Below are positions 11,301 to 51,521 of a stretch of 64,000 nt of DNA, one piece after another. Both the position numbers and the translations under genes were made by a program. How positions within the stretch are numbered: the first letter of the stretch is position 1; every line of letters starts with the position of its first letter. Under the pieces are notes generated by a model. That model had not been told where the DNA came from and did no database searches. It was given only the letters and a program-made list of their open reading frames with translations. The stretch is from a virus: positions 1-64,000 of IMG/VR virus record IMGVR_UViG_3300033553_000372; one strand, written 5' to 3'.

Positions 11301-11929
11301 TAATTTATAAAGCAACAAATGTAATTGATGGAAAATTTTATATTGGTTTAACTAAGGGGCCTATAAGTGGGCCAATTGGAAGACATAAAAATAAGTCTAA
11401 AAAAGTTGTGTCTATATTTTATAATGCAATTAGAAAACATGGTTTTGAAAACTTTACTTGGGAAATAATAGATTCTGATGCTATATCTTACGAACATCTT
11501 CAAGAATTAGAAATCTGGTATATAGCAGAATTAAAACCAGACTATAATTCTACCAAAGGTGGCGAAGGTACGTTGGGTTTTTCTCCAAGCATAGAATCAA
11601 TAAATAAAGGAAGACTTAAGAGAATTGGGGTTCCATTATCAAAAGAACATAGGGCAAATTTACGTACAGCTAAATTAGGGAAGAAGGGTCCACCAAGTAA
11701 AAGAAAAGGAAGAAAGTTTGGACCAATCTCAGAAGAACATAAATTAGCTATTTCTAAGGCTAGCAAAAATAAAAAACTTTCAGAAAAATGTAAATTCAAT
11801 TTATCTAAAGCTCATAAAGGAAAGAAACTTTCAGAAGACCATAAGAGCAGTATTTCGAAGACATTAATTGGAAATATTCCCTGGAATAAGGGAATTAAAC
11901 AAATAGATTACAAAAAGAAGGGCGCTTAA
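11297..11929 (+). CDS. GIY-YIG homing endonuclease with NUMOD3 repeats
   Basis: An N-terminal GIY-YIG nuclease domain is visible: IIYKATN (residues 2-8) and KFYIGLT (13-19), then GRHKNKSKK with the conserved Arg/His region, and an ELEIWYIAEL segment near residue 70. The C-terminal half carries several NUMOD3-type DNA-binding repeats (ISEEHKLAISKA, LSEKCKFNLSKA, LSEDHKSSISKT). Free-standing homing endonucleases of this type cut phage DNA and copy themselves into uninfected alleles. It is wedged between tape measure and distal tail genes through an ATGA overlap and breaks the usual gene order. Confidence 0.9.
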   Translation: MIIYKATNVIDGKFYIGLTKGPISGPIGRHKNKSKKVVSIFYNAIRKHGFENFTWEIIDSDAISYEHLQELEIWYIAELKPDYNSTKGGEGTLGFSPSIESINKGRLKRIGVPLSKEHRANLRTAKLGKKGPPSKRKGRKFGPISEEHKLAISKASKNKKLSEKCKFNLSKAHKGKKLSEDHKSSISKTLIGNIPWNKGIKQIDYKKKGA

Positions 11930-29548: not shown

Positions 29549-30904
29549 ATGACATCACCCAAATTTACTTTTGATGAAAGATTCCAGATTACCATCTTCG
29601 AATTATTGACTACAGATAAATATTTTGCAGAAAAATGTTTTGAACATGTAAGTCCAGAAAGTTTTAAGAATGAATATTTTGCTACCATCTATAATATTCT
29701 TCTCGGTCTATATAGAAAATATGAGTCAGTTCCGACAATTAATCAATTAAAAAATGAAATGCTTCAGATAAGTAATCCAACTAAGTCTGAGATTTTATTA
29801 GGAATTTATAAAAGAATAATAGATCCAACAGATACTAGAGATTATGAATACGTTAAAAAGAATTTAGAGAATTTTATAACACATAACCATATGCATCAGT
29901 TAGTTAATGGTATTATAAAGAACCAAAATGATCCACAAAAAGCAATTGAGGCTGCCACTAAAGAAATGGAAGCCATTTCAAATATCTCTTTCTCTACTAC
30001 AAAAACCGAAAACTTGTCAAATATAGAATCAATTCTACAAAGGTCTGCTGAATCATCAACACAATTAATACCAACTTTTATGCCTACAATGGATAATGAA
30101 ATGGGTGGCGGTGTTCCAAGAGGAACTTTAACCTGTGGATTAGCTGGAACAAATGTTGGTAAATCTATTTGGATGATTAATTGGGCTTATCATTTAATAA
30201 ACAATGGATATAAAGTTTTCTATGTAAATTTAGAAGGATACGCTGATCAACCATTATTAAGAATGATAACGCGTTCTCTAAAAGCCAATTTCTTTCAAGT
30301 GAGATGGAACAAGATTTCTGAACATGAAAGGGAAATGGCATTGAAATTTCAAAATGAAAAAGGAAAGAATTTTGAGTTTATGCATAACTCTTCATTTGAT
30401 TTTACAGTTGAAGACTTATTGCCAATGGTTAGAAAAATGCACGCTGATTTTCAATTTGATGTTTTAATGGTAGACTATGGGCAACTTTTAAAATCTAAAA
30501 GAAAATTTGAAGGCATTCGTCACGAACAATCTTATGTCCATAGAGCATTAGCGACTATTGCGGGCGAATTAAATATTGCTGCAGTTACAGTTGCTCAAGG
30601 AACTCGAGATACAAATGTAAAAAATCATAATGGTTCTAGCTTAATAAGAATGACTGATATCTCAGAGTGTTTTGAGATTATGAGAGCATGTGCTACCGTA
30701 TTCACACTAAATAGATCTGAAAGAGACGAAGAAATGGAAAAGGTAAGAATACTTTGTGATAAACAAAGAGATGGTAAAAAGAATATTATTGAAATTTGCA
30801 AGACAGATTTTGGTAAAATGTGCTTTTATGGCCCAGAATCAGAAGGCCTTGGTTTTATGAATGTTAAACAATATTTAGAAGAAAATCCAAAAGAAAAAAT
30901 GTAA
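29549..30904 (+). CDS. replicative DNA helicase, DnaB/gp41-like
   Basis: The 451-residue protein has an N-terminal helical domain (about 1-145) and a RecA-like core. Walker A lies within GLAGTNVGKS (197-206), and the Walker B-like DVLMVDYGQLL lies near 305-315. The GGGVPRGTLT leader before Walker A is typical of DnaB-type helicases. It unwinds parental strands at the fork and should interact with the primase encoded one base downstream in an overlapping start. A plausible AGGA site precedes the ATG. Confidence 0.85.
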   Translation: MTSPKFTFDERFQITIFELLTTDKYFAEKCFEHVSPESFKNEYFATIYNILLGLYRKYESVPTINQLKNEMLQISNPTKSEILLGIYKRIIDPTDTRDYEYVKKNLENFITHNHMHQLVNGIIKNQNDPQKAIEAATKEMEAISNISFSTTKTENLSNIESILQRSAESSTQLIPTFMPTMDNEMGGGVPRGTLTCGLAGTNVGKSIWMINWAYHLINNGYKVFYVNLEGYADQPLLRMITRSLKANFFQVRWNKISEHEREMALKFQNEKGKNFEFMHNSSFDFTVEDLLPMVRKMHADFQFDVLMVDYGQLLKSKRKFEGIRHEQSYVHRALATIAGELNIAAVTVAQGTRDTNVKNHNGSSLIRMTDISECFEIMRACATVFTLNRSERDEEMEKVRILCDKQRDGKKNIIEICKTDFGKMCFYGPESEGLGFMNVKQYLEENPKEKM

Positions 30905-32019
30905 TGTCACAATTCAACTATAAAGATTTAGAAAATTTACTTCAAGAAGTTGATATAAACTATATTGAAAACAATTCTCACTTTATAATTAAAGAATGTC
31001 CAAACTGTAATGGTGAAGATAAACTATTTATCTCTAAATCTAATTTATTATGGCAATGCTTTAAATGCAAAGATGTTGGTAATCCAGAATTTGGTAAAGG
31101 TAACTTATATTTTTTATTAAAAAACGTTCTTTATTTAGATAATATTCAAATAAAGTCTATTATTTTTGATAATAAGACTATTGAATATGCCCCAGAAGTT
31201 TTAACAATACCAGAAGAAAAAATTAAAGAAGAAAAAGTTTTACATAAAAATATAACTCAATATGAAGTTCCATCTTATTTTTATAAATTAGATTGTTCTG
31301 AAGAATCTATGAAAAAATATCCAGAAGCATATAGATATTTAATTCAAAGAAAAGTGACATCAAAAGATCAGATATTAAAGTTTGATTTAAGATATAATTC
31401 TGCTCAAAAAAGAATAATATTTCCTGCTTATATTGAAAAAGATTTTATAGTTGGAGTTCAAGCTAGAGATATAACTTTGCGATATAAAGAGCACCACCCA
31501 AAATGTCAAAATTTTAAGTGCAATTTATCTAGAAAATATTATTTTAAAAATGAAACAGTAGCCCCAATACATTGTCCAGAGTGTAATGAAAAATTAGTAG
31601 ACTCTTTTTATCCAAAGGCAACTAATTCAAAGGATTTTCCAAAAACAGAATTATTCTTTAATCAACAAAATGTAAACTGGAATTTACCAGTTGTTTTAGT
31701 TGAAGGGCCATTTGATACTATAATGACACCAAATTCATTAGGATTATTAGGAAGAACACTTTCTTCTAATCAATTCAATATCTTGGTTAATAATATAAAA
31801 AGAGATAATAAACTAATTTTATTTTTAGACGGCGACGAAGCTGGGACACTTTCGACCTTAGATGTGTATAGAAAACTATATCCATTTATTAATATAAAAA
31901 TATGTCCTCTTTATAATGACGACGATCCTGGTTCACACTCTTTAGAGCAAAATGTTATAATGTTAAATACTATTTTATCCCCATTTGATTGGGCTATTTC
32001 AAAAAATATCTTATTGTAA
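30904..32019 (+). CDS. DNA primase, DnaG-like
   Basis: An N-terminal CHC2-type zinc finger is visible (Cys32, Cys35, Cys52, Cys55 in ECPNCNGED and LLWQCFKC). A second Cys-X2-Cys pair lies near residue 220 (HCPECN). The Toprim domain shows LVEGPFDTIM (about 266-275) and LFLDGDEAG (about 305-313). The protein is 371 residues, shorter than bacterial DnaG and typical of phage primases. It is encoded in a one-base overlap with the helicase, so the two are probably made together. Confidence 0.85.
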   Translation: MSQFNYKDLENLLQEVDINYIENNSHFIIKECPNCNGEDKLFISKSNLLWQCFKCKDVGNPEFGKGNLYFLLKNVLYLDNIQIKSIIFDNKTIEYAPEVLTIPEEKIKEEKVLHKNITQYEVPSYFYKLDCSEESMKKYPEAYRYLIQRKVTSKDQILKFDLRYNSAQKRIIFPAYIEKDFIVGVQARDITLRYKEHHPKCQNFKCNLSRKYYFKNETVAPIHCPECNEKLVDSFYPKATNSKDFPKTELFFNQQNVNWNLPVVLVEGPFDTIMTPNSLGLLGRTLSSNQFNILVNNIKRDNKLILFLDGDEAGTLSTLDVYRKLYPFINIKICPLYNDDDPGSHSLEQNVIMLNTILSPFDWAISKNILL

Positions 32020-32780: not shown

Positions 32781-33212
32781 ATGATTAATCCAGAAAACCA
32801 ATGTGCTCACCTTACGGATAAAGAAACTAAAAGTCTTTCATTAAAAGAAATGTTTGATATGCAATTATCACTTCAACTAAATATGTTTGAAAGAGGCAGA
32901 GGTGTTGATTATGTTAATGGAACATTTAAAGAAAAGGTAGATAATTTAACAATTCAAAAAAGAAACTTAGATACTGAGTTTGTTGAGTTAATTGAAAGAC
33001 TTCCTTGGAAAGAGTGGAAAACATACTCTGCAGAACAATTATCTGGTTGGACTTCAAAAGAACAAGAGCTTGAAACTAAGTTTGAATATGTAGATATGTT
33101 ACATTTCTTCATTAACTTAGGACTATTAATTGGAATTTCAGCTGAAGAAGTTGGTCAATTATATTATTTAAAAAATAAAGAGAATTTCGATAGACAAGAA
33201 AGAGGATATTAA
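32781..33212 (+). CDS. all-alpha dimeric dUTPase/dCTPase family protein
   Basis: The 143-residue helical protein carries the family motifs. Helix 1 has FDMQLSLQLNMFERGRG. The metal-binding helix shows DTEFVELIERLPWKEWK (residues 65-80). The second metal motif is ETKFEYVDMLHF (98-109), and the C-terminal motif is KNKENFDRQERGY (131-143). Members hydrolyse dUTP, and T4 gp56 of the same superfamily also hydrolyses dCTP. It begins the nucleotide-metabolism cluster next to a dNMP kinase and a thymidylate-synthase-like gene. Confidence 0.8.
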   Translation: MINPENQCAHLTDKETKSLSLKEMFDMQLSLQLNMFERGRGVDYVNGTFKEKVDNLTIQKRNLDTEFVELIERLPWKEWKTYSAEQLSGWTSKEQELETKFEYVDMLHFFINLGLLIGISAEEVGQLYYLKNKENFDRQERGY

Positions 33213-33228
33213 ACAATAGGAGTTATAT

Positions 33229-33585
33229 ATGGAAAATGTTAAAAAAGAAAAAGTAGCTAAAAAATCAAGATCAACTTACATTATTCAATGGTGGAACGAA
33301 GGATTTAAAACTAAAGCAGAAATCGCCACAAAACTTCATGAAATTGAAAATAACGGAACACTTGTTCAAAAGAAAACTTCTATTATAAGAGATGAAAAGT
33401 TTTTTGTTGGTGTTGCAAATTGGTATATCACGCAATTAGCAAGAGCTGGAAAGATTGATTATGTTGTTGCTGTTAGAAAACCAAGAGTAAAGAAAGCTGA
33501 AGCGCCAGTTGTTGAGGAAACTATTAAATCTGAAGATGTTACTGTTGTATCTACTTCAGAAGAAACTGAAATTCCTACCTTGTAA
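33229..33585 (+). CDS. hypothetical protein, possible winged-helix (118 aa)
   Basis: A basic N-terminus precedes a helix-rich segment (YIIQWWNEGFKTKAEIATKL and VANWYITQLARAGKID) that could form a winged helix. The C-terminus is acidic, Thr/Ser-rich and probably disordered. It lies between dUTPase and kinase genes with an ATAGGAGTT site before the ATG. No family was recognised with certainty. Confidence 0.5.
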   Translation: MENVKKEKVAKKSRSTYIIQWWNEGFKTKAEIATKLHEIENNGTLVQKKTSIIRDEKFFVGVANWYITQLARAGKIDYVVAVRKPRVKKAEAPVVEETIKSEDVTVVSTSEETEIPTL

Positions 33586-33599
33586 TTTTTGGAGCAATG

Positions 33600-34097
33600 A
33601 TGATAGTTATTTGGATCGAAGGTGTAGACAATAGCGGAAAATCAACCTTAGCTAAAAAGTTAATAGAAGCCTTTAATTTAGAATACATTCATTGCTCTAA
33701 ACCAAAAACCGATAATCCGTTTTTAGAATATAAAGAAATGATTCAACAAATTAATAAGCCCACAGTATTTGATAGAGGATATTGTGGCGAATTTGTTTAT
33801 TCACAATTATGGAGAGGTGGACTATCTATGAAAATGGACGAGTTCCATCAATTAGATGATTTATGTAAAGAAAGATTTGGATTTAAAACCATTATTATTC
33901 ATGCACAAGCTCCACTACATATCATAAAAGATAGGTGTATTAAAGAAAAAGAAGACTTGCTTCAGTTAGATCAGATTGAAAAATGTCAGCACTTGTTTAC
34001 TGAAATCATGTTTCATACAAAAATGCCAGTATTAGATTACTTTTCTCATACTCAAGAGCCAAAAGATATAATCGAAAAGCTATCTGCATTTCTTTAA
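33600..34097 (+). CDS. deoxynucleoside monophosphate kinase (dTMP kinase-like)
   Basis: A P-loop with GVDNSGKST lies near the N-terminus. A conserved FDRGYCGEFVYSQLW segment follows near residue 55-70, as in thymidylate kinases and phage dNMP kinases. A lid-like basic segment (DRCIKEKED) lies near 120. Two ATG codons are consecutive (33597 and 33600); the second has better spacing to GGAG. The product should phosphorylate dNMPs made by the neighbouring thymidylate-synthase-like enzyme. Confidence 0.75.
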   Translation: MIVIWIEGVDNSGKSTLAKKLIEAFNLEYIHCSKPKTDNPFLEYKEMIQQINKPTVFDRGYCGEFVYSQLWRGGLSMKMDEFHQLDDLCKERFGFKTIIIHAQAPLHIIKDRCIKEKEDLLQLDQIEKCQHLFTEIMFHTKMPVLDYFSHTQEPKDIIEKLSAFL

Positions 34098-34124: not shown

Positions 34125-35072
34125 ATGACAAACTATTCCACTGTGTTTAGAAATTGTGTTACTGAAATTATGAATCATGGCGATGAAGTCTCACCAAGAG
34201 GACAACTAACTAAAGAAAAATTATCTCACACAATTAAAGTTAATCCATTAAAGAGTATTTTTTCATCTCCTATTAGAGAAATAAATCATTCATTCTTATT
34301 TGCTGAAAATTTATGGTACCTTTCTGGAAGAAATTCAATGTTTCTTCTAACTCATTATAATAAAAATTACCATAATTTTGCAGATGATTCTATATTACAA
34401 GGCGCCTATGGCCCAATGATATTAGAGCAAATTAGGTATATTGTTAATACGCTTAAAAAGGACAATGATTCGAGACAAGCTGTAATTTCTTTGTGGAGAC
34501 CTAATCCATCTGAAGCAAAAGATAAACCATGTACGCTCAATTTTCATTTTATGATTCGCAATGGTCAACTTAATCTTCATGTTACTATGAGATCAAATGA
34601 TGCTGTTTGGGGACAAAATTATGATGTTCCATCTTTTAGCTTACTTTTATTAGTGATAGCTGGATCTCTTGCTGTCAAACCAGGACATTTATATTTAACG
34701 GCTAATAGTTTACATATATACGAAAAACACTTTGAATTAGCTAACGAAATAAAAAATTCTCAAGATTCTGATTATAAAGATGTAGAGTTTATTGAAGCAC
34801 CAAATGAAACGCTTGAATGTCAACTATATTATGTTGAACAATGCATCATGGCTCATTATCTTTTAGTTTCAAATAATTTTGATTTATTGAAATTTAATTC
34901 ATTACCAAATTTTTACAAACAATATGTTGGAGCTATGGCTTATCATATTCAACATAAAGTTAAATCAGAAATATTAGTAGAAGATATTATCTATTATATT
35001 AGTGACGCAAATAGTTCTTTAGGTAATATGTTCAATGACAAATATAAATCGTACTTACTCAAATCTAAATAA
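34125..35072 (+). CDS. thymidylate synthase family enzyme, possibly dCMP hydroxymethylase
   Basis: The 315-residue protein has the core family motifs: DSRQAVISLWRP (Arg117), the catalytic Cys136 in KPCTLNF, MRSND (155-159) and SLHIYEKH near 202-209. Eight residues after Asp159 the sequence reads YDV, so Asp167 aligns with E. coli ThyA Asn177. In this family Asn recognises dUMP, whereas Asp is found in dCMP hydroxymethylases. The enzyme may therefore modify dCMP rather than methylate dUMP. The C-terminus overlaps the polymerase start by 38 bases. Confidence 0.8.
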   Translation: MTNYSTVFRNCVTEIMNHGDEVSPRGQLTKEKLSHTIKVNPLKSIFSSPIREINHSFLFAENLWYLSGRNSMFLLTHYNKNYHNFADDSILQGAYGPMILEQIRYIVNTLKKDNDSRQAVISLWRPNPSEAKDKPCTLNFHFMIRNGQLNLHVTMRSNDAVWGQNYDVPSFSLLLLVIAGSLAVKPGHLYLTANSLHIYEKHFELANEIKNSQDSDYKDVEFIEAPNETLECQLYYVEQCIMAHYLLVSNNFDLLKFNSLPNFYKQYVGAMAYHIQHKVKSEILVEDIIYYISDANSSLGNMFNDKYKSYLLKSK

Positions 35073-38000
35073 TAAAAGCCATTTTTCTTGTGGAATTGGT
35101 ATTGGTAAACCAATAGAGATTATCAATAAAGCAAAAGAAAAAGGTCTTAGTGGTATAGCTATAACAGACAGGTATACTATCGCCGGACTTCTTGATTTTT
35201 ATTTTCTAGCAAAAAAAGAAAAATTTCCACTTGCTTTAGGTGTAGAACTTTTCTTTTTCGATTATTCTAATAAGATAAATAGAATTATTTTGATTGCTAA
35301 AAATCAAGAAGGATATTTTAATCTTTGTAAATTAGTTTCTTCTTCTCATAATAATATAGATATGCATAAAGTTCCTTGTGTTTCTTTTTACGATCTTAAT
35401 GAATTTAAAGATTCACTTTATTGCTTAATAGACAATCATGATTATCATAAAATATTAGAGCCTATCTTTAAAGAAAATTTAATATATGAAATTATTCTTG
35501 ATAGTGATCATATTGACAAAAATAAATCTATTATAGAAAGCGGTAATAAATTCGTAATAACTTCAGACGCATTTATTCCTGATGAGACATTTAAAATACT
35601 TCAAGACATTATGATAGATAATGCATCATTTAATTCTACAAAAGAAGTTTTCACAGAGTCTAAACATATTTTATCCTTTAATGAATTAGTAGAAAAATGG
35701 AAGAATCATATAGATTACTTTCCAGCCCAAAAGTTTATAGAAGGAATCGACTTATCAAATTTAATATTAAATGAATGCTCAAAAATAGAATTAAAATTTA
35801 ATGATCAAGTTGTAAATTTCCCACACCTCCTTCATCCATTTAATTTAGAAGGACATTCAAAAACAGAATTAGTTTGGAAAATTGCTAAAGAATATGGTAG
35901 ACTTCAAGATAATTCTATCTATAGAGAAAGATTTGAATTTGAAATGGATGCTATTCAGAATAATGGTCGAGTAGATTTAATAGATTATTTTTTAGTTTTA
36001 GAGGATTTGTGTCGCTGGTGTAGAGAAAATGGAGTCATGGTTGGGCCTGGAAGAGGTTCTGGAGCTGGATCATTAGTTAACTATTGTCTTAAAATAACTC
36101 ACCTAGATCCAATAAAATATAATTTGCTGTTTGAAAGATTTATCTCTAAAGGTCGTATTCAAATGGGTACGTTACCAGATATTGATTTAGATTTTTCTCA
36201 CCCAGATAAAGCGAGAGAATATTTAATTGAAAAATATGGATATGATAGAGTCATAAGAATAGGAACTGCTCAAACACTAAAAGCAGCTGGATCAGTTAAA
36301 GATGTAGCTAAGTTTTTAAATCCAGAATTAGATTTTATGACAATTAATAATATCACAAGAACTTTTGGTGTTAAAGACCAAGATGAAACTGAGCTTCAAT
36401 TCTTTGAAAGAAACTGTAATGAAAATGATGTTGCTAAATTATTTTTTGACCAATATCCACAAATCAAAGAAAACGTTGGTAGATTATTAGGATACAATAG
36501 ACAATATGGAACTCATCCCTGTTTTAGTGGCGATTCAACTATACTTACAGATGAAGGTTTTAAATCTTTTAGTGAACTCAATGGTTCAATAAAGAAGGTT
36601 TTAACACCAGATGGTTGGAAAGAAGCTATTTTTTTTACAAATGGATATAAAGATATTAACGTATTTAAATTTAAAAGTAAGCAATTATCTAACAAATCTT
36701 ATTACACAAAAAATACTGAAGATCATTTATTTTTAAATAACAAAAATGAATTTGAGAATTTATCCTCGAATTTTATTCCTTCTCAATTATTAGCTAACGA
36801 TTTCGATAGATTATTTATTCTTTTAGGTTGGTTATGGAATGATGGAACATATTTAAAAAATAAGAAGAGATTTTTTCTTTATCTTACAAAAGAAAAAGAT
36901 GAGGCGATTTTATCATTATTAAATGAGAACGATTACGAGATTACAAATAGATCTGATAGAGTGCTATTATCGCTAGAACTATCTAAACAAATTTTTAATT
37001 TAGGTTATTGCTGTGAATTAGTTAGAAATAAAACTTTTCCTATTAATTGGAATATTTGGACTTTAAAACAAAAGTTCTCTTGGTTAAGGGGTATGTTTAG
37101 TGCCAATGGCTGTGTGATCAGGTCTGCAATAACATTAAAGCTCACATCTATTCCTCTTATACAAGAAATTCATAATTTTTTAAAGGAAAATAAATACGTT
37201 AATGTTAAGCTTGGAATTGGAACTCAAGATTTAAAAGGTTGGAAATCTAGACCAACAGGAAGCTTTTATTTATCATTTTATGGTAATTGTCTTTTTTCTA
37301 AAACGATAGGGTTTTTACAAGAATATAAAAATTTAAAGATTTATAATAAAATATCTTATATAAATAAAGAATTAATAATAGAAAATCAATTAGTATATGA
37401 CTTTACTGTATTAGATGGATCTTGTCCTATTGGTTTAGTTAATGGATTATGGGCTCACAATTGTGGAATAGCTATAACACAAGATCCATTATTTAATTTT
37501 GCTCCACTAAGAAAAGTAAAAGGACAACATGTTTTAGAATTTTCTGCAAAAAGTTGTGAATTATCTGGCATTATTAAATACGATATACTTGGACTAATGA
37601 CATTATTATTTTTACAAAATTGTTGTGAATTAGTAGGCATCGACGATATATATGATATACCACTAGACGATAAAGAAACATTTAAAGGCTTTATTGATGG
37701 ACTAACAGCTGGAACATTTCAGTTTAATTCAGATGTAGCAATAAATATTTTATCTCATCTCCCTTTAGAATTAATGAATCTTGATTTATTGTCAATGACA
37801 ACTTCAGTTGGTAGACCTGGTCCAATGAAGAATCATCAACACGTTGAATTTTACAAGAGAGTTTTAGGAGATAAATTTTCTAGTCCGCCACATCCAGCTT
37901 TAGAAGAAGAATTGAGAGGAACTTATGGTATTATGATTTATCAAGAATCTGTAATGAAGGCTTCACAAATTCTTGGAGGATTCACTTTAGCAGAAGCAGA

Positions 38001-39030
38001 TGATATTAGAAAAGCAATGGGTAAAAAAGATCCAAAAGTTCTCATACCATATAAAGAAAGATTTATTAATCACTGTTTTCTAAAGTATCCAGAAACTAAA
38101 TTTGATTTTTATGATAGTGATGGAAACAAAGTTTCTACTGTTGGAGAACATATATGGGAACTAATGGCTACTTTCTCAGCTTATGGATTCAATAAGTCTC
38201 ATTCAATGTCATATGCATTAATAGGTTACTATTGTCAATATTTAAAAACGCATTATCCAATTCAATGGTGGATCAGTTGTTTTAAATTTGTAGATTCAGA
38301 AAAATTAAGAGAATATTATTCTGTTGCAAAAGAATATTGTGTTGATCCAGATATTAATTTATCTGAGATGGATTACATTATAAATAAAAATAATAAAATT
38401 CAGTTTCCATTTTCTTCTATAAAAGGATTAGGTCCTAAAGCAACAGAAGAAATTTATAAATGTAGACCATTCGTTTCATTTGATGATTTTATAACTAGAG
38501 TAAATAAAACTAGAGTAAATAAAACTGTAGTTCAGCAGCTTATATTCTCAGGTTGCTTTGAATCTCTACATCCAAATCAAACTCAAATACTAATAGATCA
38601 ATATTTTATAAGTAGAAAAGAAAAGACTCCACCTGAATTAACAGCTTTAGATAAATTTCAATTAAAAGAAAAAAGGGTAAATGCGTTATCATTTCTACAA
38701 GATGATCTTTATGATACATATGTCGATAGATATAGCGATACATTTACCACATATGATCAAGCATTGATTGAAAATAAAGCTCGAAAGTTTATTAATATAT
38801 TAGGTACTATAAAGAAAATAACTTTAAAGAAGACTAAAACTAATAAAGCATTTGGAACTGTTGAGGTTGAAAATGCAGGTGAAACTTTAAAACTTAGAAT
38901 ATGGGAAGATGAGATAGATTTCTACAAAGAAACTTTAAAAGATAAAGTAAGAGTTAAAATTAAATGTGGAGTTTCTGGATATAATGGAACAGTTCAATTA
39001 ACATTAGTAAGTATGGAGATATTAAAATGA
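35035..39030 (+). CDS. dnaE: DNA polymerase III alpha subunit (DnaE-type) with intein
   Basis: The 1331-residue precursor would splice to about 1017 residues. The N-terminal PHP-like domain (SHFSCGIGIG, GLSGIAITD) has lost part of the metal motif seen in bacterial DnaE. The palm carries GPGRGSGAGS and the catalytic PDIDLDFS (near residue 382). The intein interrupts THP/CGIAIT. After it come GRPGPM, the fingers region with ADDIRKAMGKKDP, an HhH segment (SSIKGLGPKA) and an OB-fold C-terminus. It is the replicative polymerase of the phage. A DEDDy exonuclease encoded at 52674 could serve as its proofreader. Confidence 0.9.
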   Translation: MTNINRTYSNLNNKSHFSCGIGIGKPIEIINKAKEKGLSGIAITDRYTIAGLLDFYFLAKKEKFPLALGVELFFFDYSNKINRIILIAKNQEGYFNLCKLVSSSHNNIDMHKVPCVSFYDLNEFKDSLYCLIDNHDYHKILEPIFKENLIYEIILDSDHIDKNKSIIESGNKFVITSDAFIPDETFKILQDIMIDNASFNSTKEVFTESKHILSFNELVEKWKNHIDYFPAQKFIEGIDLSNLILNECSKIELKFNDQVVNFPHLLHPFNLEGHSKTELVWKIAKEYGRLQDNSIYRERFEFEMDAIQNNGRVDLIDYFLVLEDLCRWCRENGVMVGPGRGSGAGSLVNYCLKITHLDPIKYNLLFERFISKGRIQMGTLPDIDLDFSHPDKAREYLIEKYGYDRVIRIGTAQTLKAAGSVKDVAKFLNPELDFMTINNITRTFGVKDQDETELQFFERNCNENDVAKLFFDQYPQIKENVGRLLGYNRQYGTHPCFSGDSTILTDEGFKSFSELNGSIKKVLTPDGWKEAIFFTNGYKDINVFKFKSKQLSNKSYYTKNTEDHLFLNNKNEFENLSSNFIPSQLLANDFDRLFILLGWLWNDGTYLKNKKRFFLYLTKEKDEAILSLLNENDYEITNRSDRVLLSLELSKQIFNLGYCCELVRNKTFPINWNIWTLKQKFSWLRGMFSANGCVIRSAITLKLTSIPLIQEIHNFLKENKYVNVKLGIGTQDLKGWKSRPTGSFYLSFYGNCLFSKTIGFLQEYKNLKIYNKISYINKELIIENQLVYDFTVLDGSCPIGLVNGLWAHNCGIAITQDPLFNFAPLRKVKGQHVLEFSAKSCELSGIIKYDILGLMTLLFLQNCCELVGIDDIYDIPLDDKETFKGFIDGLTAGTFQFNSDVAINILSHLPLELMNLDLLSMTTSVGRPGPMKNHQHVEFYKRVLGDKFSSPPHPALEEELRGTYGIMIYQESVMKASQILGGFTLAEADDIRKAMGKKDPKVLIPYKERFINHCFLKYPETKFDFYDSDGNKVSTVGEHIWELMATFSAYGFNKSHSMSYALIGYYCQYLKTHYPIQWWISCFKFVDSEKLREYYSVAKEYCVDPDINLSEMDYIINKNNKIQFPFSSIKGLGPKATEEIYKCRPFVSFDDFITRVNKTRVNKTVVQQLIFSGCFESLHPNQTQILIDQYFISRKEKTPPELTALDKFQLKEKRVNALSFLQDDLYDTYVDRYSDTFTTYDQALIENKARKFINILGTIKKITLKKTKTNKAFGTVEVENAGETLKLRIWEDEIDFYKETLKDKVRVKIKCGVSGYNGTVQLTLVSMEILK
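36520..37461 (+). mobile_element. intein with LAGLIDADG homing endonuclease in DnaE
   Basis: The 314-residue intein runs from Cys (precursor residue 496, CFSGDSTILTDEG) to the terminal His-Asn (AHN), with Cys as the first residue of the C-extein. Block B is seen as NTEDHLFL. The two LAGLIDADG helices are LFILLGWLWNDG and LRGMFSANG. Block F is VYDFTVLDGSC, in which the usual block F His is missing. Splicing would restore HPCGIAIT, a conserved DnaE motif. The element is probably still mobile because both endonuclease helices keep an acidic residue or Asn at the expected site. Confidence 0.9.
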
Positions 39031-40930: not shown

Positions 40931-42022
40931 ATGGAAGAAAAACCTAACCTATTCGGTACCCTCTTGAAAAAAGAGGGTTTTTATAAAGCATCAACAATAG
41001 TTCAAGACTTAGTTTTAAAAGTTCCACCAAGGGCTCCAGCTTTTTCTTCTTCTCCAAGTTTAGCTTGGATGAGTTCAGTTGGATTTGAAGCCGGAACTAT
41101 GTCGCTTTGGTTTGGACCAAAGTCTTCTGGTAAGACAATGTTAGTTCTAGATCTCATGAAAGATTTTATGAGACAAGAGCTAGATGCTGTAGCTGTTTTT
41201 ATTGACGCTGAAATGTCATTTGAATTTGAAGCAACATTAAGATGGATGGCTGCAAATGGAATTGATCTTGATAGAGTTTTAGTTATAAGAGAAGTCTGTA
41301 TTATGGAAATTTTCGAAACTAAAGTTTTAAAAGAATTAAATCTTGCTATAAAAAATGAAGGAGTTAAGATTTGCTTTATGGCTGCCGACTCAATCCAAGC
41401 AATGTCTGTAATGAAAATTCCAGACACAGAAGCTCAAATTAATAAAGCAGCAAAAGATGGAGCCTTAACAAAAGCCGATTATGGAAAGAGAGCAAACTAC
41501 TTAGCAAAGATATTTCCATTCTTGAGAATGTTTTGTAGAGATAATCGTATCCATTTAGCCTTTATTGGACAAGCAAGATCAGGTGGAGAAGATACGTTTG
41601 GAAATCAAATATGGGAAACAAATGGTGGAGAAGCCCTTTATCATGAAGTTCAATATAGATTTTTAATTACTCCAGCTGGTGAGCCAATATTCCATTCTAC
41701 AGATTTAGATGCAAACGGTAAGCCTGTAAAAATAGGTCACCAAATAAAATGTATCTGCCAAAAGAATAAAATGGGTGAAGGTCAAGATAGAGTCGGTTGG
41801 ATTAATATCGAATATATGAAAGGCGTAGTTAATAAAGAAAATGAACTCGTTGACATTTGTTCTAAATTGTCTATCATTGAAGGTGGTGGAGCTTGGCTTA
41901 ATTACAATGGATCTAAGTACAATGGATCTAAAAAGATGGCTGAAGCTTTAAGAGAAGATCCATTGCTTTATAGAGAACTATTTAACAAAATGATGATGAG
42001 AGCATCTACCGGAGCAACATGA
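40931..42022 (+). CDS. uvsX: UvsX/RecA-like recombinase
   Basis: The 363-residue protein has a Walker A motif FGPKSSGKT (61-69), a FIDAEMSFEF segment (about 90-99) and a RecA-type SIQAMSVMKIPDTE loop. An AFIGQARSGGEDTFGNQIWETNGG region (about 212-235) follows and matches the DNA-binding L1/L2 area. It promotes strand exchange in recombination-dependent replication. Residues 10-17 are encoded over an internal terminator-like hairpin at 40958-40982. The stop overlaps the next gene by four bases. Confidence 0.85.
   Translation: MEEKPNLFGTLLKKEGFYKASTIVQDLVLKVPPRAPAFSSSPSLAWMSSVGFEAGTMSLWFGPKSSGKTMLVLDLMKDFMRQELDAVAVFIDAEMSFEFEATLRWMAANGIDLDRVLVIREVCIMEIFETKVLKELNLAIKNEGVKICFMAADSIQAMSVMKIPDTEAQINKAAKDGALTKADYGKRANYLAKIFPFLRMFCRDNRIHLAFIGQARSGGEDTFGNQIWETNGGEALYHEVQYRFLITPAGEPIFHSTDLDANGKPVKIGHQIKCICQKNKMGEGQDRVGWINIEYMKGVVNKENELVDICSKLSIIEGGGAWLNYNGSKYNGSKKMAEALREDPLLYRELFNKMMMRASTGAT
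40958..40982 (+). terminator. terminator-like hairpin inside the 5' end of the uvsX-like gene
   Basis: ACCCTCTT (40958-40965) pairs perfectly with AAGAGGGT (40971-40978) around GAAAA and is followed by a five-T run. It starts 27 bases after the start codon of the recombinase gene. The codons used here (ACC, CTC, TTG, GAG, GGT) are uncommon elsewhere in the gene, so the structure looks selected. It may act as an attenuator. Confidence 0.6.
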
Positions 42023-45000
42023 ATACAAAGTTAATCGTAATTTCAGACGTCCATTTATCATTAAAGAATTTAGACGTATCAATTGAAACATTAACTCAAG
42101 CATTAAAATTATCGAGGGACTTAAAGGTCCCTCTTTTTATTGCTGGAGACCTTAATGATGGGAAGGCCTTAATTAGATCTGAGTGGGCAAATCCACTAAT
42201 AGATTTATTCAATGAATATAATGATGTTTTAATTTATATTCTTATTGGAAACCATGATCTTCAAAATAAAAATGCTTCCTCTAATTCACTTTATTTTCTT
42301 AAAGCTTTATCAAATGTTTGCTTAATAGACAAACACATTACAAAAAATATTAATGGAATAGATTTTGGAATTATTCCATATCAAGTTTCTACAGTTGAAT
42401 TGCAAGATATTATCTTACAAATGAAAGATAGGGATGTTAAGAGCCTATTGATCCACCAAGGTATTTGGGGCGCATATATGGGCGATTATATAGTAGATGA
42501 ATCATCTATATCTCCTGATGCCTTTAAAGATTTTGATTTTGTAGGCTCTGGACATTATCATAGATCACAAAGGCCAGCTGATAATATTCTTTATTGGGGT
42601 TCGCCATTCACAACAAATTTTTCAGAAGCTAATGAAGAGAAGTTTATATGGAAAGTTGAATTATTAAATGATAAAATTAATACAGTTCCAGTAATGACAA
42701 ATGTTAGAAGACACAAGCAAATAGTATTTGAAGATTCAATTACTCAAGTTGAAAAGCTTCCAGCAAATTCATTAGTCAAAGTTCTATTGAAAGGAACAAA
42801 AGAATTTACTCAATCAGTTACGGTAGAATATTTAAAAGAATTATTAGGCGTAAACTCAGTTACCATCTCGACAGAGATAACAAAACAATCAGAACAAAGA
42901 GTCTCATCTGAGATATTAAATAACCCAATTAAAGTTATTGAGTTCTATTTGGCTAACTGTAAAACTACTTATGATAAATTAGAATTAGAGAAATATTTTA
43001 AATCTGCTGTAGGCGATCTCATTAATAATTTCTCTCAATCTTCTTCTAAACAATTTAGGCTTAAGAAAGCTAATTGGAATAATTTTCTTTCATTTAAAGA
43101 AGAATCGTTTGAATATTCACCAATGGGATTAACATTAATTGAAGGCTACGATGAAGACCTTGGCGTTAATACTGGATCTGGAAAGTCAAGCTTTTTAGAT
43201 GTTCCATGTTATGGAATGTACGGTGAGACTTCAAAATCTCTTAAGGCTGATGAGGTTATCAATAGACAAGTTGGAAGAGATTTATTTGTTGAATTATTTT
43301 TAGAATCTAATGGCGAAGAATATATTATTCGTAGATATAGAAAACATAGATTATTTGAAAACGATTTACATATGGTTATGCCAAATGGACAAGAGTTAAG
43401 AGGAAAAGATAATAGAGAAACTCAAAAACTTATTGAACAAGAATTAGGAAAGTCTTTAGATATTTTTCTTAAATCAAGTTACTTCACTCAATTTGGACCA
43501 ATGGATAGATTTTTATCTGCATCTGATACAGAAAAGAAACAATTGATTGCAGAAATTACTGACCTATCTATATATGATACTATATTAGATCGTGTTAAAG
43601 ATCTTCTTAAGGAAGATCAGAAGTCTCTTGATTCTGCTGAAACCCAACTAAAACAAGATTCTTATGTAGTATCTCATTTAAATGTTACGATTCAAGATAA
43701 TACGAATAAATCTATTAATTGGAATATAGCCCATAATAATAGAATAATTGAAACTGGAATTTTAGTTGATAAAGAAAATATTAGAATAGCTAACGATAAA
43801 ATTGAATTTAATAATAAATCAAATGAGTGGTTAAATCAAAGTTCTCAATCAATTAAGAACCTTAAATCTCAAGAAAAAGGTTTTGAACAACTTAGATTAG
43901 AGATGATTGATAACTTCAATACAGATCTATTAATGTTTAATGCTAACCAACAAGGTAAAATTGAATCTATTAATAATGAGATTGAAGAGTTAAGAAATAA
44001 GATAACTCCACTTCAAGATAAACATGATGAGTTATTAAAAACTCTTCCTGATATGTTGACATTAGAAAATGAGAGAAAAGAATTATTAACTAAAAAAGAA
44101 ACTATTGCTCAATTAAAAATAAAAGAGCAAAACATTTCAAATGAACTTTTCTCTAATGATAAACAAATAGAAGCTCTTCATAATAAGATTGCCGCTGATA
44201 TAAAAAAGATTAATGGAGGTGATTCATCTGAATGTCCACATTGTTATCAAGAGCTAGATGCAAACTGTATTCATAAAAATATTGAGGTATTTCAACATGA
44301 TATAGATAAGTTGGATAATCTTTCAAATGATTTAAGAAAAAAATCAGATGCTATTAAATTCTACATCGATCAGACTCCACAAGTATTAGAGAGACTTCAG
44401 CAAATAGAAAAAAGTGGATATGAAAAAAAGAATATTGAATTAGAACTTGAAACTATATTGAGAACAATAAAGTCTATTGGTGAGACTATTAAATTCAAGA
44501 ACGATATGTTAGATCAAATCAATAGTTCAGTGAGTCCTGCTTTAGCTCAGATAGAAAATAAAAAGAAAGAAGCTAATCCATACACACAGTTAATTATAAA
44601 TGAAGAGAGCAAAACTAATCCATATCTTGAATATAGAGATATAGAGAATAAATATATTTTATCATTAGAAAATCTTAATAAAGAGATTAATCCATACCTC
44701 TCAATACTAGAACAAAATGGATTTGATATTCAACAAGCTCAATTTGCAGAACTTAAAGGCCTTGAGACTCTAGATTATTGGGTAACCAAAGTTGATTATG
44801 GAACTTGGTGGAAACAAGCCCTACATGTTTATATTAAATCTTATTTAATGGACTCTTGTTTTGAGCAAATTAATATTATAGCAAATGAGCACCTTAATAC
44901 ATTATTTGACGGCGTATTAAAAATTAATATTTCAGCCACAACTGAAGCAAAGTCTGACATAAAAGAAAAGATTTCTGTTCAAATTATAAACAATGGAGAT

Positions 45001-45297
45001 GAATGTTCTTATAATTCATTATCAGGCGGTGAGAGAGCTAGAATATGCTTAGCTTTAAATCTTTCATTAGCTAAAGTAATTGCTAAAAGTTCAGGAAATA
45101 AATTGAATTGGATAGCTTTAGATGAGATTCTTAATGGCTTAGATGAAGTTGGTAAAGCTCAAACTATGAAGTTCTTAAAGGAACTTGAATCAGAATATGA
45201 AACTATATTTGTGATTGATCATGATGAATCATTTAAGTCTATGTTTACGAATTCTATATCGATAGTTAAGAAAAGCAAAGTGTCAACGATTGTATAG
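42019..45297 (+). CDS. SbcD-SbcC fusion (gp47/gp46, Mre11/Rad50-like)
   Basis: One 1092-residue chain contains a complete nuclease and a complete SMC-like ATPase. N-terminal metallophosphoesterase motifs are ISDVHL (8-13), AGDLNDG (42-48), GNHD (77-80), LIHQG (144-148) and SGHYHR (177-182). The ATPase half has NTGSGKSS (about 385-392), long coiled coils, a zinc-hook CPHC (about 739-742), the signature LSGGER (about 1002-1007) and the Walker B-like IALDEILNGLD. It should process DNA ends for recombination. T4 encodes these as two proteins. Confidence 0.85.
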   Translation: MNTKLIVISDVHLSLKNLDVSIETLTQALKLSRDLKVPLFIAGDLNDGKALIRSEWANPLIDLFNEYNDVLIYILIGNHDLQNKNASSNSLYFLKALSNVCLIDKHITKNINGIDFGIIPYQVSTVELQDIILQMKDRDVKSLLIHQGIWGAYMGDYIVDESSISPDAFKDFDFVGSGHYHRSQRPADNILYWGSPFTTNFSEANEEKFIWKVELLNDKINTVPVMTNVRRHKQIVFEDSITQVEKLPANSLVKVLLKGTKEFTQSVTVEYLKELLGVNSVTISTEITKQSEQRVSSEILNNPIKVIEFYLANCKTTYDKLELEKYFKSAVGDLINNFSQSSSKQFRLKKANWNNFLSFKEESFEYSPMGLTLIEGYDEDLGVNTGSGKSSFLDVPCYGMYGETSKSLKADEVINRQVGRDLFVELFLESNGEEYIIRRYRKHRLFENDLHMVMPNGQELRGKDNRETQKLIEQELGKSLDIFLKSSYFTQFGPMDRFLSASDTEKKQLIAEITDLSIYDTILDRVKDLLKEDQKSLDSAETQLKQDSYVVSHLNVTIQDNTNKSINWNIAHNNRIIETGILVDKENIRIANDKIEFNNKSNEWLNQSSQSIKNLKSQEKGFEQLRLEMIDNFNTDLLMFNANQQGKIESINNEIEELRNKITPLQDKHDELLKTLPDMLTLENERKELLTKKETIAQLKIKEQNISNELFSNDKQIEALHNKIAADIKKINGGDSSECPHCYQELDANCIHKNIEVFQHDIDKLDNLSNDLRKKSDAIKFYIDQTPQVLERLQQIEKSGYEKKNIELELETILRTIKSIGETIKFKNDMLDQINSSVSPALAQIENKKKEANPYTQLIINEESKTNPYLEYRDIENKYILSLENLNKEINPYLSILEQNGFDIQQAQFAELKGLETLDYWVTKVDYGTWWKQALHVYIKSYLMDSCFEQINIIANEHLNTLFDGVLKINISATTEAKSDIKEKISVQIINNGDECSYNSLSGGERARICLALNLSLAKVIAKSSGNKLNWIALDEILNGLDEVGKAQTMKFLKELESEYETIFVIDHDESFKSMFTNSISIVKKSKVSTIV
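42114..42138 (+). terminator. terminator-like hairpin inside the 5' end of the sbcDC fusion gene
   Basis: GAGGGAC (42114-42120) pairs perfectly with GTCCCTC (42127-42133) around a TTAAAG loop, and five T residues follow. It begins about 95 bases downstream of the start codon. The codons AGG, GAC, GTC, CCT and CTT used at the stem are rare in this genome, which prefers AGA, GTT/GTA, CCA and TTA. This argues for selection on the RNA. Confidence 0.6.
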
Positions 45298-45713: not shown

Positions 45714-45725
45714 TTGAGGTTAAAG

Positions 45726-46412
45726 ATGAAACTATTACTTTTGTTATTATTTACTGGATGCGTGTCTCAACAATCTAACTTTTCAGATGAAGCCTATAAG
45801 AATTCGTTTTATAAAAAGGATATGAAGCTATCTTCTAATGGATTTAAAGGTATTGGAACACTTGTTCTTCCAAAGGCTACAGATTATAAGATGGACTTTG
45901 AGTCTTATGGAACATTGGATTTGTTTACATTTTCAACTTGTCACAGAGAAATCTCAATTGAGGAAGCTGGAGAGCGTGGAATTTTTGGTAATAAGAAAAA
46001 AACTAAGCTCACTTATTCTCCAAATTCTATGGAACTAGTTGCATGTCCAATTGATATTGGTGGATATGATGCAGATAAAGGTAGACACTCTTGGGCCTTT
46101 ATTGCTATCGAAACAGATAAACATACACTTCCAGCAAATGTGCAATGTAATGGAGACACCTATAACTCGAGAGGAACGACTATTTGTCAAGCAAGAGCTG
46201 GACTTGTTCAATCTATTTCATTTGAAAATGAAGTTGTTTTCGTACTAGACAAATCATGTTCAGATTTAAAATACACTTATGAAAATAAGACGCTTACTTT
46301 TACAATGAACAAAGGACCTTGCGTAAACTATTTTAAAGAAATAAAGGCCCCAAATAGAATACATGAGCTAACTACATTTGGTTATGAAAAAATATTAATT
46401 AGAAAAATTTAG
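45726..46412 (+). CDS. putative phage lipoprotein (228 aa)
   Basis: A short lipoprotein signal peptide is clear: MKLLLLLLFTGC, with the lipobox LFTGC and Cys12 as the lipidated residue. The start at 45726 is preferred over the TTG at 45714 because GAGG precedes the ATG. The mature part is beta-rich and contains four further Cys residues that could form disulfides, consistent with an exported envelope protein. It might act in superinfection exclusion or lysis, but nothing in the sequence proves either. Confidence 0.65.
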   Translation: MKLLLLLLFTGCVSQQSNFSDEAYKNSFYKKDMKLSSNGFKGIGTLVLPKATDYKMDFESYGTLDLFTFSTCHREISIEEAGERGIFGNKKKTKLTYSPNSMELVACPIDIGGYDADKGRHSWAFIAIETDKHTLPANVQCNGDTYNSRGTTICQARAGLVQSISFENEVVFVLDKSCSDLKYTYENKTLTFTMNKGPCVNYFKEIKAPNRIHELTTFGYEKILIRKI

Positions 46413-49496: not shown

Positions 49497-50139
49497 TATT
49501 CCAGAGTTAGAAAAAGAAAAGGTTGAAGAAATTCAAGCCGAAGTAAAAGACTCTATTCCAAATAACGGAAAGAATTTCTATACTGAACTGGTTAAGTCGA
49601 TGTTGGTAGATTATGTTGTTAATGACTTATCTGTTCAACAACTATCTGACAAATACCATATCACGATTGAGATTGCAAGAAAAATTTATAAAGGTTATTC
49701 ATTTCAAAAGAGAAAAGAAGACTATCAAAATAAATTATATGATGCTGTATTAAAGAAGGTAGCCAAATCTCAAACTGGACTAATAGCTAAAATAACTGAA
49801 GCAATAACTATTCAAGTAAATAGGATATTACTACTTCAAGCAAAAGATCCAACATATATGATTTCAAATAATAATATGAAGGACTTACTTTCTTCTCTAA
49901 CGATTTTTACTAGAGAATTTAAAGACTCAACAAATCCAGCTAATGATAAGCGCGTTGTTAATATAAATGTTGAAATGCCTAATTATATTCCAATAGTTAC
50001 AGATAACAATAAAACAATAGTTGATATTAATAATGAAGAGCCAATTAATGTTGAGCCCGAAATAAAAGAACAATCAAAAGAAGAAATAAAAGTAGAGATA
50101 CCAGAATCAGAAGATTTATTTGGTGGATTCGTTGAATGA
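49477..50139 (+). CDS. terS: terminase small subunit (probable)
   Basis: The 220-residue protein has an HTH-like segment near residues 48-75 (DYVVNDLSVQQLSDKYHITIEIARKIYKGY), a helical oligomerisation core and a charged C-terminal tail (EEIKVEIPESEDLFGGFVE). It is directly upstream of the large subunit with a four-base overlap, as expected for TerS, which recognises packaging sites. The sequence itself is not diagnostic. Confidence 0.6.
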   Translation: MNQENNSIPELEKEKVEEIQAEVKDSIPNNGKNFYTELVKSMLVDYVVNDLSVQQLSDKYHITIEIARKIYKGYSFQKRKEDYQNKLYDAVLKKVAKSQTGLIAKITEAITIQVNRILLLQAKDPTYMISNNNMKDLLSSLTIFTREFKDSTNPANDKRVVNINVEMPNYIPIVTDNNKTIVDINNEEPINVEPEIKEQSKEEIKVEIPESEDLFGGFVE

Positions 50140-51521
50140 AAACGGCTACAATAAAAATAAACTATGAGCCACATGAAGGACAAAAAGAAGTTCTGCAACA
50201 AATCATGGAGTCCGGCGCAGATGTAATTGTTATTGTTTGTTCACGTGGTTGGGGTAAAACACTTTTTGTTTCCTGTTCTATAGTTCTTCCTCCAATATTA
50301 AAACACGCTAATCTTCAAGTTTGTTGGATCGCACCAAATTATAAGATTGCAAAGGCTCCAATTGAAGATGTTTTCTTTGGTGTTAATGAAAATACTGGTG
50401 AAAGATTTATAAATGATAAATGTCCTGAAACTGGATTTGTTTTCTTTGAACATAAAAAAGGAGACAATGAGCTTCATTTTTGGAATGATTCAAAATTATT
50501 TTTAAGATCTGCTGATGCACCAGAATCTATCGTATCAAAAGGATATAACTTAGTTATTATAGATGAAGCAGCTTTAATTTCAAAAACAGTATTTCAACAA
50601 AATATATTACCAATTGCTAGAAAAAAGAATTGTAAGATTGTATTGATCACAACTCCGCGTGGAAAAAATTGGGTGTATCATTTATTTTTAGATGGTAAAG
50701 ATCCAGCAAAGAAAAGATATTTTGCTGCCCAACAACCGTGGAACAAGAGACCAGATTATCCACCTTTATTAATTGATTTAATGAAAGACTTACCAGATCA
50801 TGTAAGGCGTCAAGAGTTCGGAGCAGAATTTATTGATGGTGGTGGCGGTATCTTTAAAAATATGGATGGAATTTTTAGAGGTAAATTGATAGAGTTTGCT
50901 TCAGATCAGCAAGAATGGTATGATCCAAAATGGAAAAATATATCTTCAGAAGAAGCTACAATTATGGCTATCGACTGGGCTAAATCTGTAGACTTTACTG
51001 TTATATCGATATTTTCTCTAACGACTAAGAAAATGATTTATTATGCTAGATTAAATAAAACTGATTATAAAACTGTTTTAGAAAAATGTTCTTTACTTGG
51101 TACAAGATTTAATTGCACTGATATGATTTATGATGCGACTGGAGTCGGTAGTGGTTTAACAGATTTTATTCCAGCAGAATTTAATGCAGTACCATATGTC
51201 TTTACTAATCAATCTAAAAACGATTTAATTAATAAACTAATTATGTCATTTGAATATGGAATTTTAGATATACCAAATATTGCGACGATTAGAAATGAGT
51301 TTGAAATTTTAGAAGTTTCATTTACAAAAACTGGAAAGTTTAGCTATGAAGCTCCAGATAGTAAACATGACGACTGTGTTATGTCAATTGCATTAGCTAA
51401 CTTCTACATCGAGGATAATACTGGCGTTGGTGAAGTAGGTGAAATTGATAGCATTATTGATACCTATACACAAGCTCGTAGGTCAATTCTAGATGATGAA
51501 GATGATGACGAATATAATTAA
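50136..51521 (+). CDS. terL: terminase large subunit
   Basis: The 461-residue packaging motor has a Walker A-like CSRGWGKT (35-42), a Walker B-type LVIIDEA (about 138-144) and a coupling motif TTPRG (about 172-176). The C-terminal nuclease shows acidic sites in IMAIDWAKSVDF (about 276), MIYDATGVGSG (about 330) and DSKHDDCVMS (about 408). It translocates and cuts phage DNA into the prohead. It is unusually far from the other head/tail genes of this window and lies downstream of the replication block. Confidence 0.9.
   Translation: MKTATIKINYEPHEGQKEVLQQIMESGADVIVIVCSRGWGKTLFVSCSIVLPPILKHANLQVCWIAPNYKIAKAPIEDVFFGVNENTGERFINDKCPETGFVFFEHKKGDNELHFWNDSKLFLRSADAPESIVSKGYNLVIIDEAALISKTVFQQNILPIARKKNCKIVLITTPRGKNWVYHLFLDGKDPAKKRYFAAQQPWNKRPDYPPLLIDLMKDLPDHVRRQEFGAEFIDGGGGIFKNMDGIFRGKLIEFASDQQEWYDPKWKNISSEEATIMAIDWAKSVDFTVISIFSLTTKKMIYYARLNKTDYKTVLEKCSLLGTRFNCTDMIYDATGVGSGLTDFIPAEFNAVPYVFTNQSKNDLINKLIMSFEYGILDIPNIATIRNEFEILEVSFTKTGKFSYEAPDSKHDDCVMSIALANFYIEDNTGVGEVGEIDSIIDTYTQARRSILDDEDDDEYN

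Follow-up and report, generated by a model that had tools for sequence, protein, structure and literature searches.

A predicted dCMP 5-hydroxymethylase and a putative T4-like pathway to glycosylated hydroxymethylcytosine DNA in a phage unrelated to T4

Described relatives and comparison with the new locus

Hydroxymethylcytosine (hmC) genomes, thymidylate synthase (TS) homologues with Asp at position 177 and DNA beta-glucosyltransferases (beta-GT) are already known. In the dCMP hydroxymethylase of phage T4 (gp42), an acidic residue three positions before the catalytic Cys (Asp145; Asp or Glu at C-3) represents a hydroxymethylase signature, which activates the water for hydroxymethylation, and its exchange in the variant D145N abolishes activity (PMC6400193). 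Position 177 (E. coli TS numbering) sets the base choice, position 147 is associated with modified-cytosine contigs, and Asp177 was linked to contigs with modified cytosine by MetaGPA (PMC8670742). The choice between deoxyribose and ribose is governed by Arg126/Ser167 versus Lys/Ala, as illustrated by the CMP hydroxymethylase MilA, in which Lys133 and Ala176 select ribose and swapping both reversed the preference to dCMP (PMC5175136). Moreover, diverse phage DNA glycans were reported by a 2024 Cell Reports study, as cited in PMC13216743.

The window analyzed here covers positions 1-64,000 of an IMG/VR virus record of 77,040 bases and features a gene for a TS-like protein (Table 1). As Asp177 marks cytosine without telling which group is placed on the ring, five positions were used as a diagnostic code, i.e., 126, 143, 147, 167, and 177 of E. 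coli TS. The window enzyme carries R-D-T-S-D, identical to T4 dCMP hydroxymethylase; E. coli TS and the bacterial TS loci feature R-L-H-S-N, the SPO1 dUMP hydroxymethylase R-D-N-S-N, and MilA K-D-T-A-D.

Besides the code, the virus has a gp56 homologue (36% identity), a beta-GT homologue and a dCMP deaminase in common with T4. Nevertheless, its enzyme shows low identity to gp42, occupies a separate place in the tree and has Gly where gp42 has Ser94. The kinase belongs to another family than T4 gp1, the polymerase is of the DnaE type instead of the B family of T4, and, unlike in T4, a GalE gene overlaps the beta-GT gene; the genome is otherwise not T4-like. The Asp177 "pyrimidine HMase" family (AXL3, PW916, HTVC119P, phage G gp319, and metavirome contigs; PMC8670742) is 35-40% identical to the window enzyme and shares with it the code and the kinds of neighboring genes, whereas the window protein branches separately beside this family and its NTP pyrophosphatase is of the gp56 kind, that of AXL3 falling into other PHROGs.

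Table 1. Features of the enzyme gene, its surroundings and the distal part of the record. Positions with the prefix L010 are counted within bases 60000-77040 of the record, all others within the window.
Feature	Position	Strand	Basis or remark
DnaB-like helicase, same gene run	29549-30904	+	phrog_19
DNA primase, same gene run	30904-32019	+	phrog_47
All-alpha NTP pyrophosphatase, T4 gp56 dCTPase/dUTPase homologue	32781-33212	+	BLASTP 36% identity, E=4e-24; PF08761
118-aa protein, same gene run	33229-33585	+	no Pfam or PHROG match
P-loop nucleotide kinase, thymidylate-kinase type	33597-34097	+	phrog_761, E=1e-17
Predicted dCMP 5-hydroxymethylase, TS fold	34125-35072	+	ATG to stop, 315 aa; Pfam, alignment, model
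Asp133 codon	34521-34523	+	alignment; three before Cys136; T4 Asp145; Leu143 in E. coli TS
Asp167 codon	34623-34625	+	alignment; position of E. coli TS Asn177 and T4 dCMP hydroxymethylase Asp179
DnaE-type DNA polymerase III alpha with intein-like insert	35035-39030	+	Pfam, NCBIfam
GalE epimerase	L010:5941-6933		four-base overlap with beta-GT gene; NCBIfam equivalog
T4 DNA beta-glucosyltransferase homologue	L010:6930-8093		PDB 1bgt, E=4.7e-17; phrog_7922, 1.5e-26
dCMP deaminase	L010:10151-10639
Nmad1 protein	L010:10636-10974

The enzyme, its fold and its diagnostic residues

The reverse strand of the enzyme gene is crowded with stops, and no other TS-like gene was found in the 77-kb record. The 315-aa protein was matched by Pfam Thymidylat_synt with 1.2e-27 (97 bits vs. 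a cut-off of 24), while its scores in the NCBIfam TS equivalog models stayed far under the cut-off. Its best PHROG is the one holding SPO1 gp29, and the top sequence match among solved structures was MilA and not a TS. Likewise, a Foldseek search with the AlphaFold model (pLDDT 82) revealed MilA (5jnh) first, with E=1.9e-20 and TM 0.78, followed by all TS structures at 5e-15 or weaker and a TM of about 0.58. In the phylogenetic tree, the TS, CMP and dUMP types formed one group each and the window enzyme branched off separately next to the viral R-D-T-S-D group (support 93/98); no single supported clade united the window group with T4 gp42.

The sequence-only reading of this gene had assigned Asp167 to the site of E. 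coli Asn177, eight residues past the Asp of the RSND motif. A MAFFT alignment with E. coli ThyA, T4 gp42, SPO1 gp29, and MilA agrees on the position, which corresponds to T4 Asp179, and the spacing from D159 to D167 is as described. The further claim that the exchange of Asn for Asp is the switch to dCMP chemistry holds for the reading of cytosine but not for the product, as methylation, hydroxylation and hydroxymethylation are not told apart by Asp177 alone but by the C-3 Asp together with the retained folate residues. Since D167 is unchanged in the five nearest named relatives and Asp177 with the complete R-D-T-S-D code is present in 82 of the 83 related viral loci, it is a conserved feature of the family and not an isolated substitution.

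The nucleophile C136 is located in the stretch D133-K-P-C136, followed by Thr137 at position 147, and the remaining catalytic set is kept with E61 (E. coli E58), Y95 (Tyr94), D159 (Asp169), H197 (His207), and Y199 (Tyr209). The phosphate/ribose pocket features the pair of the deoxynucleotide type, R117 and S157. T4 Ser94 (Ser or Thr two residues before Tyr96) was also called a hydroxymethylase signature (PMC6400193); here, G93-A94-Y95 was found instead, in the window enzyme as well as in its nearest relatives. This mismatch is not decisive, as MilA has Thr and SPO1 gp29 Ala at this site and the T4 variant S94A keeps about 25% of its activity (PMC6400193). According to these residues and matches, the gene is predicted to encode a dCMP 5-hydroxymethylase, to which a probability of about 0.9 is assigned.

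An ordinary thymidylate synthase, converting dUMP to dTMP for phage replication, would share the fold and the Pfam and NCBIfam thymidylate synthase matches, and the status as sole TS-like gene in the record would suit it as well. This is highly improbable in view of the joint departure from TS at three positions (N177 to D, H147 to T, L143 to D), the low equivalog scores, a fold match weaker than that of MilA and an alignment without a recognizable TS C-terminal closing tail. The leading sequence and fold matches among solved structures would rather favor a CMP hydroxymethylase of the MilA/BcmA type acting on ribonucleotides, and MilA, an enzyme of the mildiomycin pathway, indeed has the cytosine-reading Asp, the C-3 Asp and the Cys-Thr pair in common with the window enzyme. 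Against this, Lys133/Ala176 of MilA correspond to Arg117/Ser157, by which a preference for deoxynucleotides is predicted, and the gene sits in a phage replication operon, so that such a function is hardly credible. The same low rank is given to a dUMP hydroxymethylase of the SPO1 type, which would lead to hydroxymethyluracil DNA: the best PHROG is shared with SPO1 gp29 and near relatives such as PW916 are annotated as deoxyuridylate hydroxymethyltransferase, but in SPO1 gp29 and its relatives positions 177 and 147 are both Asn, in contrast to the Asp and Thr of the window enzyme, and a gp56-type dCTPase and a beta-GT suit cytosine.

Neighboring genes, distal glycosylation genes and related loci

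The predicted dCMP 5-hydroxymethylase is accompanied by genes of nucleotide metabolism. The gp56 homologue, which falls into phrog_173 together with T4 gp56, starts 1.3 kb and ends 0.9 kb upstream of the enzyme gene, separated from it by the 118-aa ORF and the kinase. The sequence-only reading had recognized it as an all-alpha dUTPase family protein related to gp56, which stands, and had called it adjacent, which is slightly loose at this distance. The protein is predicted to remove dCTP and to supply dCMP. Similarly, the dNMP kinase of that reading is a P-loop nucleotide kinase, but its likeness to T4 gp1 is an analogy at most: the two proteins belong to different PHROGs (phrog_761 vs. phrog_139) and a profile comparison aligned the P-loop only. 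On these grounds, a hydroxymethyl-dCMP (hm-dCMP) kinase of the T4 gp1 family was rejected; the kinase is nonetheless predicted to act on hm-dCMP (and dTMP). Downstream, the last 38 bases of the hydroxymethylase gene are shared by the DnaE ORF, whose product is predicted to use modified dCTP.

The intein-like insert of DnaE comprises about residues 495-840, starts with CFSGDSTILTDEG, ends with AHN before Cys and shows a weak LAGLIDADG match (E=0.0037). Elsewhere in the window, a single 1092-aa ORF (42019-45297) combines an SbcD-like metallophosphoesterase with an SbcC/Rad50-like ATPase as a fusion of the T4 gp47-gp46 type. A likely GIY-YIG homing endonuclease (11297-11929; recognized by eye, with a weak NUMOD3 match) lies between tail genes. 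The large terminase (50136-51521) is about 25% identical to its best matches in the phage collection, which are from Thermus phages, and several lipoprotein-like ORFs occur (e.g., 45714-46412).

The distal part of the record contains the beta-GT homologue, about 32 kb away from the hydroxymethylase gene. Its identity to T4 beta-GT is only about 23%; the catalytic and UDP-binding residues E22, D100, R191, R195, D258, R269, and E272 of T4 are kept. Together with GalE (NCBIfam equivalog, 304 bits vs. a cut-off of 262) it forms a pair (L010:5941-8093, i.e., about 65940-68092 of the record). The overlapping GalE gene suggests that the donor sugar belongs to the phage's own module; GalE could supply UDP-Gal or could instead restore UDP-Glc in the host pool. 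The combined scenario, in which GalE makes the donor and the DNA, replicated in fully hydroxymethylated form by the DnaE polymerase, carries galactosyl-hmC or another non-glucose hexose, appears rather doubtful. Searches of the record revealed neither DHFR nor ThyX; this absence, which would be expected if folate is not oxidized, is weak evidence, as the record is possibly incomplete.

These genes also bear on a dCMP methylase of the Xp12 type, in which Asp177 would be combined with a TS-like hydride transfer, resulting in 5-methylcytosine DNA. The exchange of Asn for Asp at position 177 alone turns TS into a dCMP methylase, according to work cited in PMC8670742, and the restriction pattern of phage AXL3 described below is equally compatible with 5-methylcytosine. 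In the tree, the enzyme of phage DLP4 clusters with TS; it features Asp177 but Asn at C-3 (143) and Pro at 147, and a DHFR gene is located two genes from it, whereas none was found in the window record. DLP4 belongs to the Bosaviruses, as does the 5-methylcytosine phage Xp12, and the methylase signature of Asn at C-3 plus Pro147 is drawn from DLP4 only. Unlike DLP4, the window enzyme has Asp at C-3 (D133) and Thr at 147 (T137), and a T4 beta-GT homologue would be useless for 5-methylcytosine. Methylation is thus very improbable.

A comparably small chance is given to a 5-hydroxy-dCMP synthase as in RB69/Mosigvirus, where the sugar is attached directly to 5-hydroxycytosine. Mosigvirus-type enzymes belong to the TS homologues, carry Asp177 and an acidic C-3 residue and occur alongside epimerase-type genes (PMC13390438), and RB69/Mosigvirus share with the window virus the TS-family Asp177 enzyme, the epimerase in the genome and the sugar on cytosine, the latter being predicted in the window virus. 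RB69 ORF048c, taken here as the Mosigvirus 5-hydroxy-dCMP synthase (PMC13390438), features Asp177 and Glu at 143, the window enzyme Asp at 143. ORF048c has Asn for the folate residue Asp169 and Phe for Tyr209 and lacks Gly173, having lost folate-site residues which the window enzyme keeps as D159, G163, and Y199; this loss signature derives from ORF048c only. In addition, the glycosyltransferase of the window virus belongs to the T4 beta-GT type, whose substrate is hmC. Diagnostic residues led to the rejection of all five alternatives, i.e., TS, 5-hydroxy-dCMP synthase, dCMP methylase, and the hydroxymethylases of dUMP and CMP.

The predicted assignment as dCMP 5-hydroxymethylase also fits into the gene neighborhoods of related viruses. 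Most of the 83 viral loci feature a kinase, an NTP pyrophosphatase or a dCMP deaminase inside 2.6 kb of the R-D-T-S-D gene. All kinase (61/61) and dCMP deaminase (63/63) matches and 65 of the 66 NTP pyrophosphatase matches were found within this distance, where an even spread would put about 20 per gene type. None of the three adjoins the 28 bacterial K-D-T-A-D genes or the TS genes. Furthermore, beta-GT homologues directly adjoin the R-D-T-S-D gene in five loci (L075, L083, L091, L154, and L155), which represent three lineages, as L075/L083 and L154/L155 are near-identical pairs. In the latter pair (L154:5993-8246; L155:3499-5752), kinase, hydroxymethylase and beta-GT genes follow in this order, joined by overlaps, the kinase being homologous to that of the window; this operon is a predicted compact cassette for hmC glycosylation, as judged from its gene content. 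Scanning the viral contigs with the window kinase or the glycosyltransferase of the record singly revealed no relative; a search with a glycosyltransferase alignment led to L154-L156, with L156 belonging to the same contig as L091. In phage G, an annotated alpha-glucosyltransferase is located near its copy of the enzyme. Near-identical R-D-T-S-D enzymes were also observed on bacterial contigs of Bacillus sp. FJAT-27264 (L094) and Paenibacillus sp. BJ-4 (L095), which are possibly prophage or island copies.

Among the closest isolate relatives is the enzyme of AXL3, with about 40% identity. Only two of 37 enzymes, with A/T-only sites in each case, cut the DNA of this phage, which has a separate ThyX; the pattern was left unexplained by the authors (PMC7504290) and is compatible with modified cytosine. 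The genes with the cytosine code in AXL3 (L003:7986-8795) and PW916 (L002:3280-4098) are annotated as thymidylate synthase and deoxyuridylate hydroxymethyltransferase; judged by their code, these annotations are probably wrong. No published enzyme assay or nucleoside analysis was found for the virus or the near relatives of the enzyme.

Predicted pathway and its meaning

The substrates and product, the succession of the steps, the kind of sugar, and the DNA content proposed in the following are derived from homologies, residue identities, gene order, and co-occurrence. The gp56-like dCTPase would convert dCTP to dCMP, thereby withholding plain cytosine from DNA and feeding the enzyme. By homology to T4 gp42, Cys136 would attack C6 of dCMP while Asp167 would read and protonate N3 of the cytosine, with methylene-tetrahydrofolate as carbon donor. 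Water activated by Asp133 would then add to the exocyclic methylene to form 5-hydroxymethyl-dCMP, and folate would not be oxidized in this reaction. The neighboring kinase may phosphorylate hm-dCMP, with a host or phage kinase completing hm-dCTP, which would be inserted by the phage DnaE polymerase. Finally, the T4 beta-GT-like transferase would attach a hexose from a UDP-sugar, and GalE would adjust the pool of UDP-Glc and UDP-Gal.

Both the product hm-dCMP and glycosylated hmC are predicted from the C-3 Asp, Thr147, Arg126/Ser167, the MilA match, and the gp56, beta-GT, GalE, and dCMP deaminase homologues. The hydroxymethyl-dCTP pathway proposed from the sequence alone hence receives support from the residues, the fold and sequence match and these homologues. 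A genome with glycosylated hydroxymethylcytosine, made by a T4-like pathway in a phage unrelated to T4, is very likely.

New in this respect are the virus lineage, the joint set of genes and the code which separates the products. With the five-residue code, the product of an Asp177 "thymidylate synthase" can be tested more sharply than with Asp177 by itself, and many phage genes currently named thymidylate synthase or dUMP hydroxymethyltransferase would receive a new label. The pair of GalE and beta-GT allows the sugar identity to be probed directly; galactosyl-hmC, if true, would be a cytosine decoration unlike the glucosyl-hmC of T4. The genes of this record would represent a nearly complete T4-style pathway for hmC and its glycosylation in a phage which has a bacterial-type DnaE and to which none of the isolates searched is closely related, and the predicted sugar-coated DNA would serve as a chemical disguise against bacterial defenses.
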